DNA of 64,000 nucleotides from Bacteroidota bacterium (GTDB taxonomy: Bacteria; Bacteroidota; Ignavibacteria; Ignavibacteriales; Ignavibacteriaceae), in contig JAKAGV010000006.1 in the NCBI GenBank assembly GCA_021815405.1, forward strand, positions 186,001 through 250,000, given 5' to 3'. The notes below the pieces were generated by a model that did no database searches, was not told the DNA's origin, and saw nothing but the letters and a program-made list of their open reading frames with translations. Numbering within the stretch: the stretch's first letter is position 1; every line of letters starts with the position of its first letter. Below are positions 19,520 to 59,291 of this stretch, piece after piece. Made by a program: the position numbers and the translations under genes.

Positions 19520-21901
19520 ATGAATAAAATAAAATTACTAATTTCCCTTACAGTGGGAATTTTTGTTCTTTCGATGTTGACAAATACGTCAGCACAAACT
19601 GCTAAGATAATGAGAGTAGCAATGTCTCCTCGCATGGTAGGTACTATGGCTCCTGGAACCAATCCGGTTTACAGCGGTCAGCTTATCGTTGCAAAAGGGA
19701 TGAAAGTTTATCTTGCAGCAGATACAACCGGCGGCGTTAGTGCTTTTTCCTGGAGTATTACCGGTCCGGCTGGATCAAAAACTACTTTAAGCAGTACTAA
19801 TTCACAAAATGTAACCTTTGTACCAGATTCAGTAGGACAATATATCGTTAGCCTTACTGTTGGAAGTACTACGGATGCGGATACATTCACTGTTGCAACT
19901 TATATTGGTGTAAGTGGCAGCGGCGGATTAAAATGCGCAACCTGTCATGGCTCATATCCAACTCAACCAGGATATCAGCAATTTTCAGGATGGCAGCAAA
20001 CACCGCATGCTAAAATTTTCCAGCAAGGTGTTACTGGTCAGTTAGAAACTGCAAATGTAAACAACATGTTGATGGGTACATATTCATCAAGCTGTTGGAA
20101 ATGCCACACAACCGGCTGGGATCAAACTGCTAACAATGGTAACTTCGGTTATCTTTCTCATCAAAGCGGTTTTGATACTGTATGGGCTAAAACCTTCACT
20201 AAGTCCGGAAGTAGTTTCTTAATTCCGACAAACGATCAAACTGCATGGAATTTATTGACTACAAATCCGCAGTACAGCAATGCTGCGCCGTTAGCAAGTA
20301 TCGGCTGCGAAAGCTGTCATGGTCCTGGTTCAGCACATATTAGTACTTTAAATCCAAATATGATCAATCATAACCTTGATGCAGGTATTTGTCTCCAATG
20401 CCATGATGCACCAACACATCACACAATTGGGACCTACTATGAAGCATCTGTTCATGCACAACTGCCTGATGGAGCACATACTGCACAAACCGGATGTTTC
20501 CCATGCCACAGCGGCGGTGCTTATTATAAATATATTAAGAACCAGACCAATCCAGGCTGGACTAATGCAGATGGAAATATTCCTATCTCTTGTGCAACCT
20601 GCCATGATCCTCATGATGCAAATAACTTCGGACTCCGCATTGCTTCTAACATTACTTTGCAAAATGGTTTCCAAGTTACTACCGGTGGTAATGGTCAGAT
20701 TTGTATGAGATGCCATCAAGCTCGTGCTAATGGAAACACTGTTATTACCAACAAAGCTCCTTATTACGGTTTTACAAATCGTTTCGGACCACACCATGGT
20801 CCTCAAACCGATATGTTCTTTGGTCAGAATGCATATCAATACGGGGATACAACTATTACTGGTATGATGACTCACGGTTCTGTTCCTGATGCATGCGTTA
20901 CATGCCATATGGCTAATATCGGCGGAGGTAACAGTCCAAGCCACCAATGGAATATGGTAGATACTACCGGCGGAACAGCCAGAGACTTTGTTACTGGATG
21001 TGTTAGCTGCCACGGTCCAATTCAGAGCTTTAACGACATTAAAGCAAGCTCAGACTGGGACGGCAATGGTAAGATTGAAGGAGTTCAGACTGAAATCCAA
21101 GGTATGATGAATAACCTCGCTTCTTTATTACCAAAGGATAGTACCGGTGCAGTTGTTACGATGATGTCTGATTCTTTAAAAGTTAAAAACCAGCCTAATG
21201 TTATAAAAGGTATTTACACTTATGAATTTGTATTGAGCGATGGAAGTTACGGTGTACATAATGCCAAATACACAGTAGCTTTATTACAGAAAGCATTGAG
21301 CAGCCTTGGTTATACTGTACCGGTTGAGATGACTTCTTTTGCAGCCAATGCAGGAATAAACCAAGTTACTTTAAATTGGGAAACTGTTACTGAAACAAAT
21401 AACAAAGGCTTCGAAATCCAGCGTAAGATTGGAAATGCCTGGGTTACAGATGGCTTCGTAAATGGCAAAGGTAATTCAACTGAAATCTCACAATATTCTT
21501 ATATTGATAAGTTGAATGATTTTTCTGGTGGAAATGTATCTTTCAGACTAAAACAAATCGACTACAACGGAACAGCTCGTTATTCTAAGGAAGTCGAAGT
21601 TAATGTAGTTGCCGGACCGAAGGAATATACATTGTTCCAGAATTATCCTAATCCGTTCAACCCGTCAACAACAATCAAATTTGCTTTGCCATATCAAAGC
21701 AATGTAAAGATTGTTGTTTACAATATTACCGGTGAACAAGTGAAGGTTCTAGCGAATGCAAACTTAGGAGCTGGTGAACATCAAGTTGTAATGAATGCTT
21801 CTAACTTGTCTTCAGGAGTTTATTTCTATGCAATAGAAGCTACTTCTTTGGACGGTTCACATTCATTTAGAGAAACTAAGAAGATGATTCTTATGAAGTA
21901 A
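19520..21901 (+). CDS. secreted nine-heme c-type cytochrome with T9SS sorting domain
   Basis: A 793-residue exported multiheme protein. A signal peptide (to about SAQ26) precedes a PKD/Ig-like beta domain (about 45-130). Nine CxxCH heme sites follow, at residues 139, 192, 263, 291, 326, 358, 395, 459 and 494, with many extra His as possible axial ligands. Then comes an EF-hand-like loop DWDGNGKIEG (512-521) with a conserved helical tail (YGVHNAKYTVALL), a fibronectin-like segment, and the C-terminal sorting domain starting FQNYPNPFNPSTTIKF (706). T9SS export would place it on or outside the outer membrane, fitting extracellular or surface electron transfer. The strong Shine-Dalgarno, the terminator and the codon use suggest high expression. 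Confidence 0.93.
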   Translation: MNKIKLLISLTVGIFVLSMLTNTSAQTAKIMRVAMSPRMVGTMAPGTNPVYSGQLIVAKGMKVYLAADTTGGVSAFSWSITGPAGSKTTLSSTNSQNVTFVPDSVGQYIVSLTVGSTTDADTFTVATYIGVSGSGGLKCATCHGSYPTQPGYQQFSGWQQTPHAKIFQQGVTGQLETANVNNMLMGTYSSSCWKCHTTGWDQTANNGNFGYLSHQSGFDTVWAKTFTKSGSSFLIPTNDQTAWNLLTTNPQYSNAAPLASIGCESCHGPGSAHISTLNPNMINHNLDAGICLQCHDAPTHHTIGTYYEASVHAQLPDGAHTAQTGCFPCHSGGAYYKYIKNQTNPGWTNADGNIPISCATCHDPHDANNFGLRIASNITLQNGFQVTTGGNGQICMRCHQARANGNTVITNKAPYYGFTNRFGPHHGPQTDMFFGQNAYQYGDTTITGMMTHGSVPDACVTCHMANIGGGNSPSHQWNMVDTTGGTARDFVTGCVSCHGPIQSFNDIKASSDWDGNGKIEGVQTEIQGMMNNLASLLPKDSTGAVVTMMSDSLKVKNQPNVIKGIYTYEFVLSDGSYGVHNAKYTVALLQKALSSLGYTVPVEMTSFAANAGINQVTLNWETVTETNNKGFEIQRKIGNAWVTDGFVNGKGNSTEISQYSYIDKLNDFSGGNVSFRLKQIDYNGTARYSKEVEVNVVAGPKEYTLFQNYPNPFNPSTTIKFALPYQSNVKIVVYNITGEQVKVLANANLGAGEHQVVMNASNLSSGVYFYAIEATSLDGSHSFRETKKMILMK

Positions 21902-21957: not shown

Positions 21958-21993
21958 ACCCGGTTATGCCCTCTGTGTAACCGGGTTTTTTAT
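21958..21993 (+). terminator. intrinsic terminator of the cytochrome gene
   Basis: ACCCGGTTA (21958-21966) and TAACCGGGT (21978-21986) form a perfect 9-bp GC-rich stem with an 11-nt loop, followed by a run of T (21986-21991). It lies 57 bp after the cytochrome stop codon and insulates it from the BON gene. Confidence 0.92.
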
Positions 21994-22154
21994 TGCCTTT
22001 GAGTATATTTGATGGAATGTTGATGGACATTACAAGATAAAAACCTAATTCAACTAAGAATAAAAATGCTACGTCTAATCTGTGTAATTTGAAAATAATC
22101 TTGTTAGTATTTGATTTGGTTCTGAAAATAAAAATTAAGCAGAAAGGCAACGCA

Positions 22155-22913
22155 ATGAAAAAGGTAATTGAAAATATTGGTTTGAAGATATTATTCTTCT
22201 TTTTGGCGGCTGGCTTAATAGTGTCGTCAGCATTTGCTCAAAACAAAAGCCATAACGTTTCTCCAAAAAATGTTAAGGTCTTTGTCGAATACAAGATCCT
22301 AAAAGATAATGTATTGAATAACGCCAACATTAATGTAGACGTCAATAAAAATTATATAGTCCTTACCGGAAATGTTCCATCTTTATATGAGCGCAATTTA
22401 GCCAGAAAAGATGCAAAGGACGAATCGCACGGATATTTAATCAAGAATGATTTACAAGTTGCCGGAACAAATATTCCATCACAGACTGTTGTAAAAAATG
22501 TTCTTAATAAGATTTATAAAAACGGATTTTACGGTATATTTGATTGGGTAGACGCATCGGATACAAACGGCACAGTAACTCTTTCCGGCTGGGTGCATGA
22601 CCCGTGGCTGAAAGAGTGGTTTCAAAAGGATGCTGAAAAAGTTGCCGGCGTACGACAAATAAAAAATGAAATCCAAAATACTTTCGGTCCTGGTTATATC
22701 GGATACAGAGCCGCCTGGTTGATTTACAGCCAGCCTGAATATCAAGGTTCACAGTTTATGGTAAATCCGCCGATACATATTATTGTAAATGGAGATTCGA
22801 TAATTCTTAAAGGTCAAGTTTATACTAAAGGCGAAGGAGGATGGTTAAAAAATCTATTGGAATTTAGAACCGGCGCCTTTGATGTAAGCAATGGTCTAGA
22901 AGTAAAGAGTTAA
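22155..22913 (+). CDS. exported BON-domain repeat protein
   Basis: A 252-residue periplasmic or surface-associated protein with three BON-like units (roughly 45-110, 115-185 and 200-250). BON domains are small alpha/beta folds found in OsmY-like proteins that bind phospholipid membranes or act in envelope stress. Signal peptide: MKKVIENIGLKILFFFLAAGLIVSSAFAQ. The ATG at 22155 has GAAAGG 8 nt upstream; an upstream TTG at 22089 would spoil the signal peptide. Conserved pieces are NINVDVNKNYIVLTGNVPS, GTVTLSGWV and GDSIILKGQVY, the V-x-L-x-G strand typical of BON. It is downstream of the cytochrome but separated by a terminator, so it is a separate transcript. Confidence 0.82.
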   Translation: MKKVIENIGLKILFFFLAAGLIVSSAFAQNKSHNVSPKNVKVFVEYKILKDNVLNNANINVDVNKNYIVLTGNVPSLYERNLARKDAKDESHGYLIKNDLQVAGTNIPSQTVVKNVLNKIYKNGFYGIFDWVDASDTNGTVTLSGWVHDPWLKEWFQKDAEKVAGVRQIKNEIQNTFGPGYIGYRAAWLIYSQPEYQGSQFMVNPPIHIIVNGDSIILKGQVYTKGEGGWLKNLLEFRTGAFDVSNGLEVKS

Positions 22914-22919
22914 AAAATC

Positions 22920-23001
22920 GCTGCAGAGATTCTTATTTAATAAAGCGGGAGGAGTTCACAATTAAATAAGAATCTCTGCAGCACCATATTTCCCGCCTTT
23001 T
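22920..23001 (+). repeat. 22-bp perfect hairpin with interleaved GCGGGA/TCCCGC pairing
   Basis: The arm 22920-22941 pairs perfectly with 22961-22982 (core CTGCAGAGATTC.../...GAATCTCTGCAG). The 19-nt loop contains GCGGGA (22945-22950), which can pair with TCCCGC (22991-22996) just outside the stem. TCCCGC is followed by CTTTTC. The two pairings cross, so they form either a pseudoknot or two alternative folds. Likely roles are a terminator for the BON gene, an attenuator before hrcA, or a mobile palindrome. Confidence 0.75.
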
Positions 23002-23099
23002 CAGAAAATTGATTTAGAACGCAACGTCTACCGATAGATCTCATCTAATTTTCTATAAAATTTTAGTATATTTAACACCTAAAAACGGATAAGTTCTAT

Positions 23100-24149
23100 A
23101 TGCCAATAGATGAATTAAATGATAGAGAAAAGAATATTCTGCGTCATGTAATTCAGCAATTTATATTGACGGCAACCCCGGTCGGCTCGCAAAATATTGC
23201 CCGGAAGTTTGATCTGAAAGTTTCTCCGGCAACAATAAGAAATATTATGGCTGACCTGGAGGAATCTGGATTCATTGATCATCCGCATACTTCTGCAGGA
23301 AGAGTACCAACGGATAAAGGCTACCGGTATTACGTCGATTCACTGATGGATTTGCAGGAGCTCCGCAAATCCGAAAAAGGCATGATTAATAAAAATCTTG
23401 AAACCGGCACTCTTGATACGGAAGAATTAATAAAAATGACTTCAATGTTGTTGAGCAGCATAACTCATCAGCTTGCTTGTGTTTCCTATCCGAAGCTGGA
23501 AACCGGAACGCTGGAAAAGCTGCAAATTGTAAGTCTTACTTCATCAAGAATTTTAGTTATTATAACTATAAAATCCGGTTTGGTAAAAACAATAACACTT
23601 GAGCTTTCTTCAAGCATAAAATCGTCGCAGATAGATTCAGTTCAGAGCCTGCTGAATGAAAAGCTATCCGGTTTAACTTTTGATGAAATTAGATCAACAT
23701 TTAAAGAGCGTTTTAAGGATGTTGAAGACGAACAGAGACCGATCATAAGAGTCTTTATCGATTCCGTGGATAAAATTTTTAAGGACGAAAAGAGAAACGA
23801 TAAACTGGTAATAACCGGCGCGAAAAATATTATCAAGCAGCCGGAGTTTGATGATCCGCAAAGATTCCAGGGCATTATTGAACTCATTGAAGATAAGGAT
23901 GTAATTATTCATATTATGGAAAAGTCCGGCGACAACTCTCCGGATGATGTTTATATTTCAATCGGAAGCGAGAATGAAATGGAAATGCTTCAAGAGTACA
24001 GCTTTGTAAGCAAGGAATATAAGCTCGGCGAAATTTCAGGTTCACTGGGAATTATCGGACCGAAACGAATGGAATATTCAAGAGTAGTTGCCATTGTAGA
24101 TTACATGGCAAAAGTATTAACTGATTTTCTGAAAAATACTAATTCATAA
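23100..24149 (+). CDS. hrcA: heat-inducible transcription repressor HrcA
   Basis: HrcA represses class I heat-shock genes by binding CIRCE and is kept active by GroEL. The 349-residue protein has the N-terminal winged helix (LNDREKNILRHVIQQFILTATPVGSQNIA, then SPATIRNIMADLEESGFIDHPHTSAGRVPTDKGYRYYVD). The C-terminal half includes the dimerisation GAF-like domain and ends IGIIGPKRMEYSRVVAIVDYMAKVL, a family hallmark. Start: ATG 23100. I see no CIRCE inverted repeat (TTAGCACTC...GAGTGCTAA) upstream, so autoregulation, if any, uses another site. It is first in an hrcA-grpE-dnaJ unit. Confidence 0.96.
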   Translation: MPIDELNDREKNILRHVIQQFILTATPVGSQNIARKFDLKVSPATIRNIMADLEESGFIDHPHTSAGRVPTDKGYRYYVDSLMDLQELRKSEKGMINKNLETGTLDTEELIKMTSMLLSSITHQLACVSYPKLETGTLEKLQIVSLTSSRILVIITIKSGLVKTITLELSSSIKSSQIDSVQSLLNEKLSGLTFDEIRSTFKERFKDVEDEQRPIIRVFIDSVDKIFKDEKRNDKLVITGAKNIIKQPEFDDPQRFQGIIELIEDKDVIIHIMEKSGDNSPDDVYISIGSENEMEMLQEYSFVSKEYKLGEISGSLGIIGPKRMEYSRVVAIVDYMAKVLTDFLKNTNS

Positions 24150-58904: not shown

Positions 58905-59291
58905 TTATTTTCTTCTTAAGACATTCCAAAAAGCACTTACTCCGTTGGCAAAAGCTGAGAGGGTTTTTATTATATCAAGTGCAGGTCCTTCAAAACCGCT
59001 ACGTATCTTTTCTTCCAGCAACAGTAGCGTATCTACACGGTCATTCACCTTTCCAACCATTCTTTTAACAGTTTCAATTTGATCATCAGCAGAATCAGTT
59101 ATCTGGTTCAGCTTTTCAGTCAAATTTGTAGCGGAGGCAATAAAAGGTTTCATCCCCGTCGATATATCATTTATTTCATATTGAATTGCCTTAATAGTTT
59201 TTGTGATTCTGCTTAGAAAAACTATTAAGGCAATACATAACACCGATGCACATACAAGTAGGATAACAGAGAATACCGATACTACATTCAT
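58905..59291 (-). CDS. DUF948-like membrane protein
   Basis: A 128-residue protein with one N-terminal membrane span (about 7-28), then a long coiled-coil-like helical region with heptads (LTEKLNQITDSADDQIETVKRMVGKVNDRVDTLL). This layout is typical of DUF948 proteins, often found next to YtxH-domain genes, as here. The function is not established; such proteins are linked to general stress in Gram-positives. It lies 18 bp from the YtxH gene on the same strand. Confidence 0.82.
   Translation of the reverse strand: MNVVSVFSVILLVCASVLCIALIVFLSRITKTIKAIQYEINDISTGMKPFIASATNLTEKLNQITDSADDQIETVKRMVGKVNDRVDTLLLLEEKIRSGFEGPALDIIKTLSAFANGVSAFWNVLRRK

Follow-up and report, generated by a model that had tools for sequence, protein, structure and literature searches.

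The locus examined here raises the question of what an exceptionally long hairpin is doing between a BON-domain gene and hrcA, and to which of the two genes it belongs. We approached it in the window (the whole stretch of 64,000 nucleotides that was analysed), in the genome from which the window comes, and in related genomes of the same genus, family and class.

Structure and rarity of the hairpin

The hairpin spans positions 22920-22982 on the forward strand, with arms at 22920-22941 and 22961-22982 and a loop at 22942-22960, and is supported by its predicted fold, by covariation and by a covariance model (R1, 75.5 bits). The first-pass annotation had described a perfect 22-bp stem of unusual length, and both observations hold: the two 22-nt arms are 100% complementary around a loop of 19 nt, and among the perfect inverted repeats in 440,000 bases sampled from the genome (4,974,758 bases) this one has the longest stem, followed by two of 18 bp. 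The same sample holds 14 perfect Watson-Crick repeats when the shortest stem counted is 13 bp and the loop may be 3-45. A stem of 22 bp is far beyond chance. The hairpin has a predicted energy of -31.8 kcal/mol, and the fold of the region 22900-23030 gives z = -4.15, with none of 200 shuffles as stable. A search against Rfam returned 11 matches at E-values up to 10, none of them above its gathering score. Elsewhere in the window, another perfect inverted repeat (59185-59234; 18 bp, loop of 14 nt) overlaps a predicted reading frame.

The hairpin begins 6 nt past the TAA stop codon (22911-22913) of a BON-domain gene of the secreted, OsmY-like kind (22089-22913, forward strand; Pfam PF04972, E = 4e-18). 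The frame of 274 codons contains two BON-domain stretches (PF04972); the true start is probably the ATG at 22155, the alignment of BON orthologs indicating a common start at residue 23. Comparison of the protein with phage records gave no match. Upstream, a multihaem cytochrome gene is followed by a canonical intrinsic terminator stem-loop (21958-21986, forward strand, then TTTTTATT), which has a T-rich tail. Ordinary terminators are therefore in use in this genome, and the BON gene is probably a unit of its own. The cytochrome itself (19520-21901) carries a C-terminal tail of the type IX secretion kind, and its terminator is conserved in the relative G003. We also considered whether a structure lying about 8 nt past the BON stop could promote readthrough, but no worthwhile extension would result, because the frames soon end: past the TAA the window reads AAA ATC GCT GCA GAG ATT CTT ATT and then TAA, and the frame of G003 ends after two codons.

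Distribution among relatives

An ortholog of the BON gene was found in nine of the 13 genomes of the genus that we searched, and eight of these nine carry a long stem 3' of the BON stop codon, in every case starting 6-10 nt past it. The gene that lies beyond the stem differs between genomes: it is hrcA in three of the eight (the window genome, G003 and G012), another gene on the same strand in two (G004 and G001), and a convergent gene in three (G006, G009 and G011). It is thus the BON gene, and not hrcA, that the hairpin accompanies. G007, the sister species closest by HrcA (89% identical), has the BON gene without the hairpin. At this place, 3' of its BON gene, G007 has an unrelated palindrome (L050:2300-2400) that resembles a dispersed repeat in the way it recurs; related pieces give eight matches in G007 (both strands of the palindrome itself included) and occur twice in the window genome (G000:C23:615187-615251 and C18:230568-230610).

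Searching 80 genomes of the family with covariance model R1 gave eight strong matches (at least 62.9 bits), exclusively at BON 3' ends and at one place per genome, together with a weak match in G036 (26 bits, E = 0.036). In a sample of 391 genomes of the class, which included five of this genus, matches came from this genus alone. The BON gene is itself patchy, a close ortholog being present in 13 of the 80 family genomes, and at five loci (L052, L054, L055, L056 and L057) it is neighboured by a small CBS-domain-like gene (147-148 aa, judged by eye) that comes before or after it depending on the genome.

Three of the four orthologs from other genera lack a hairpin at the BON 3' end. Three genomes of other genera have a gene of 170-173 aa directly after BON, with no hairpin, and in G061 (L060), of another genus, a different hairpin (ACGGAAGTT.. 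/ ..AACTTCCGT) without the ACGATTTTT tail stands between BON and the next gene. Among more distant BON homologues (family f10), for which the 3' flank could be resolved at nine of 15 loci (L112-L120), at least four of the nine flanks (L117-L120) show ordinary terminators made of a stem and a T-run.

Selection on the stem

Across the eight sequences (alignment A2, 21-pair stem), 93.5% of 168 cells form standard pairs, against 39-46% in a control with slid partners, and 11 of the 21 pairs have changed on both sides. Covariation scores 0.437, the shuffles average 0.232, and none of the 500 reaches the observed value; the structure was drawn by hand from the same eight sequences on which it was tested, which is somewhat favourable to the stem. 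Because pairing is kept while both sides change, we conclude that the stem is under selection. G001 illustrates this most clearly, its stem being very different in sequence and still keeping 14 of 21 Watson-Crick pairs. The stem of the window species has an identity of 0.86-0.88 with those of G003, G004 and G012; for the loop the figure is 0.43-0.53, and for fourfold-degenerate sites in the BON coding sequence 0.39-0.47. Cells with G-U on the sense strand (eight) against A-C (four) are too few to prove that it is the mRNA strand on which selection acts.

How far such conservation exceeds that of other flanks was gauged from 12 ortholog pairs shared by the window contig and G003 contig 30, each with 60 nt or more of non-coding DNA past the stop in both genomes. 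The BON flank was the best conserved (score 45), and the second best (score 28) was that of the cytochrome-gene terminator, whose stem sequence is likewise kept. A conserved stem sequence alone is therefore not proof of a role beyond termination.

Tail sequence and termination

One mark of an intrinsic terminator, a stable hairpin closely following the stop codon, is present here; the tail is where the resemblance becomes less exact. In most of the eight sequences ACGAT and a T-rich stretch follow the stem, the T-rich stretch of the relatives beginning about 5 nt past it. A U-tract directly after the stem was found neither in the window, whose tail reads ACCATATTTCCC, nor in the relatives (AACGATTTTT). 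A T-run is present in G004, G011, G006, G009 and G001, and a good U-tract is absent from the window species, G003 and G012. In the window the tail (ACCATATTTC, 22983-22992, forward strand) appears, from alignment A2 and the flanking sequences, to be a degraded counterpart of the (A)ACGATTTTT of the relatives. The same division is seen in the predicted folds: in the five species with a T-run, A-rich bases upstream pair with the GATTTTT-type tail (GAUUUUU-type in RNA) to form an outer A/U helix across a small internal loop, and this helix is not predicted for the window species, G003 or G012. Our terminator scan, which looked for tails starting 0-2 bases past the stem and loops of 3-8, did not call the hairpin. 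Its long stem and the T-rich stretch arriving about 5 nt late make it atypical as a terminator. In published work, hairpins without U-runs are described as frequently marking transcript ends (PMC8355165), and one study used a default range of 0-10 nt between hairpin and transcript end (PMC12207403).

Role of the hairpin

The hairpin is thus genuine and kept by selection. It is for the most part of an ordinary kind, unusual in its tail and in how long its stem is. We think it probable, from the comparisons above, that it is a conserved 3'-end RNA element of the BON mRNA that terminates the transcript, protects it, or both. Of the options offered by the first-pass annotation, a terminator comes closest, with the spacing of the U-tract, the poor tail of the window and the outcome of the scan standing against it, as do the lack of the hairpin in G007 and in three of the four orthologs from other genera. 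The stem would fold at once on transcription and so set the 3' end of the BON transcript. In the five relatives with a T-run it may act as an intrinsic-type terminator. In the window species the U-tract seems to have decayed to UAUUUCCC, the tail eroding in the window's branch, so that termination would probably be weak or factor-assisted, and the hairpin would serve mainly to block 3' exonucleases. Trimming by RNase III is a plausible further step, given a stem of more than 20 bp.

A possible but more doubtful reading places termination elsewhere and has the stem recognised by a protein that binds double-stranded RNA, such as RNase III, which would set the level of BON mRNA. The 22 perfect pairs, the conservation of the stem in sequence as well as in pairing, the poor U-tract of the window species, G003 and G012, and the presence of an RNase III gene in the window genome are all consistent with it. 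Against it, no specific binder is required to account for that conservation when the stem of the cytochrome terminator is also conserved between the window and G003. In one study, lengthening a terminator stem is reported to improve mRNA protection only as far as 14 nt, after which protection declines, and RNase III is discussed in this connection (PMC11696848). More specific, and unlikely in our estimation, is the idea that the hairpin is a genus-specific, single-copy 3'-UTR RNA family in which the stem sequence together with the flanking ACGAU would be read by a dedicated factor that binds double-stranded RNA, be it RNase III or a different protein, setting the level of a secreted BON envelope protein.

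The first-pass annotation had also drawn attention to a crossing pairing between GCGGGA in the loop (22945-22950, forward strand) and TCCCGC downstream (22991-22996, forward strand), followed by CTTTTC. The complementarity is present; it is neither conserved nor beyond chance, since a shuffle test allowing any placement gave p = 0.125 for 6 bp of Watson-Crick pairing and 0.08 with G-U pairs, computed for a 21-nt loop against 22 downstream bases. Matches of 6 bp occur between loop and downstream sequence in three of the eight genomes, those of G003 (ATAGGA/TCCTAT) and G012 (AAAATA/TATTTT) being of different sequence, but their p-values are 0.127 and 0.19, and the other five sequences reach 4-5 bp (p = 0.55-0.96), so that none is significant. 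A helix of 22 bp spans about 60 Angstrom, which a linker of 8 nt could hardly reach across, and forcing GCGGGA/TCCCGC into a nested fold costs 17.5 kcal/mol. That the loop forms a pseudoknot on top of the 22-bp stem is accordingly very unlikely.

Relation to hrcA

By position the hairpin does stand directly before hrcA (23100-24149, forward strand; TIGR00331, 334.8 bits), which starts 117 nt past the stem, and this placement, with a loop able to pair with TCCCGC ahead of CTTTTC, had suggested an attenuator or heat-shock RNA switch in the hrcA leader that works through mutually exclusive folds. A promoter-like -7 box, TATATTTA (23067-23074, forward strand), lies downstream of the hairpin, 85 nt past the stem. 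The motif TAnnTTT[GA] recurs in 28 of 30 hrcA upstream regions when counted 20-100 nt before the HrcA match (shuffle mean 8.6, maximum 15), and TAnnTTTG is given as the -7 box of the main sigma factor in Flavobacterium (PMC9723704). The box at 23067-23074 is, by this likeness, likely the hrcA promoter, in which case the hairpin would stand outside the hrcA leader, and hrcA, a separate downstream unit, would start at its own promoter. No CIRCE element was found in the window at up to three mismatches; genome-wide, at two mismatches or fewer, there is one, a perfect copy before a GroES-like gene (named by eye from its translation). With the box kept beyond the hairpin, five genomes in which the gene after the BON hairpin is not hrcA, and a crossing pairing that is unconserved and costly to force, control of hrcA by this element is extremely unlikely, and the proposed link to heat shock falls away.

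Least credible of all is a mobile or dispersed palindrome of the REP or MITE-like kind, which the length and perfection of the stem and the dispersed palindrome at the same place in G007 might suggest, but the copy search found the hairpin at a single place in the window genome and at no unrelated locus, it sits at one place per genome and always 3' of BON in eight genomes of the genus, and its stem diverges along with the host gene while keeping its pairing.

These results reassign the hairpin from heat-shock control to the BON gene. The element offers a clean, covarying transcript-end hairpin without textbook U-tract spacing in the Ignavibacteria, and could help in studying transcript ends in this group. 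One library search for literature pairing Ignavibacteria with intrinsic terminators found nothing, and a limited search of work on stem-loops and mRNA stability found no mention of the BON domain.

Comparison with known systems

Set beside intrinsic (Rho-independent) terminators, the element shares a stable hairpin right past the stop codon, A-rich sequence before it and a T-rich tail after it in most relatives, and genes beyond it that are convergent or separately promoted; the outer helix of the relatives likewise resembles the A-tract/U-tract of such terminators. It differs in having a stem of 20-22 bp that is not short and GC-rich, a loop of 19-40 nt, and a U-tract that lies about 5 nt past the stem and has decayed in the window. 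With REP/BIME-type palindromes it has in common that it is an extragenic palindrome 3' of a gene, but it is single-copy and locked to one gene family. Like the 3'-UTR stem-loops that stabilise mRNAs or are processed by RNase III, it would give the 3' end of an mRNA a long double strand with almost perfect pairing, but it corresponds to no named element, no Rfam family having reached its gathering score.
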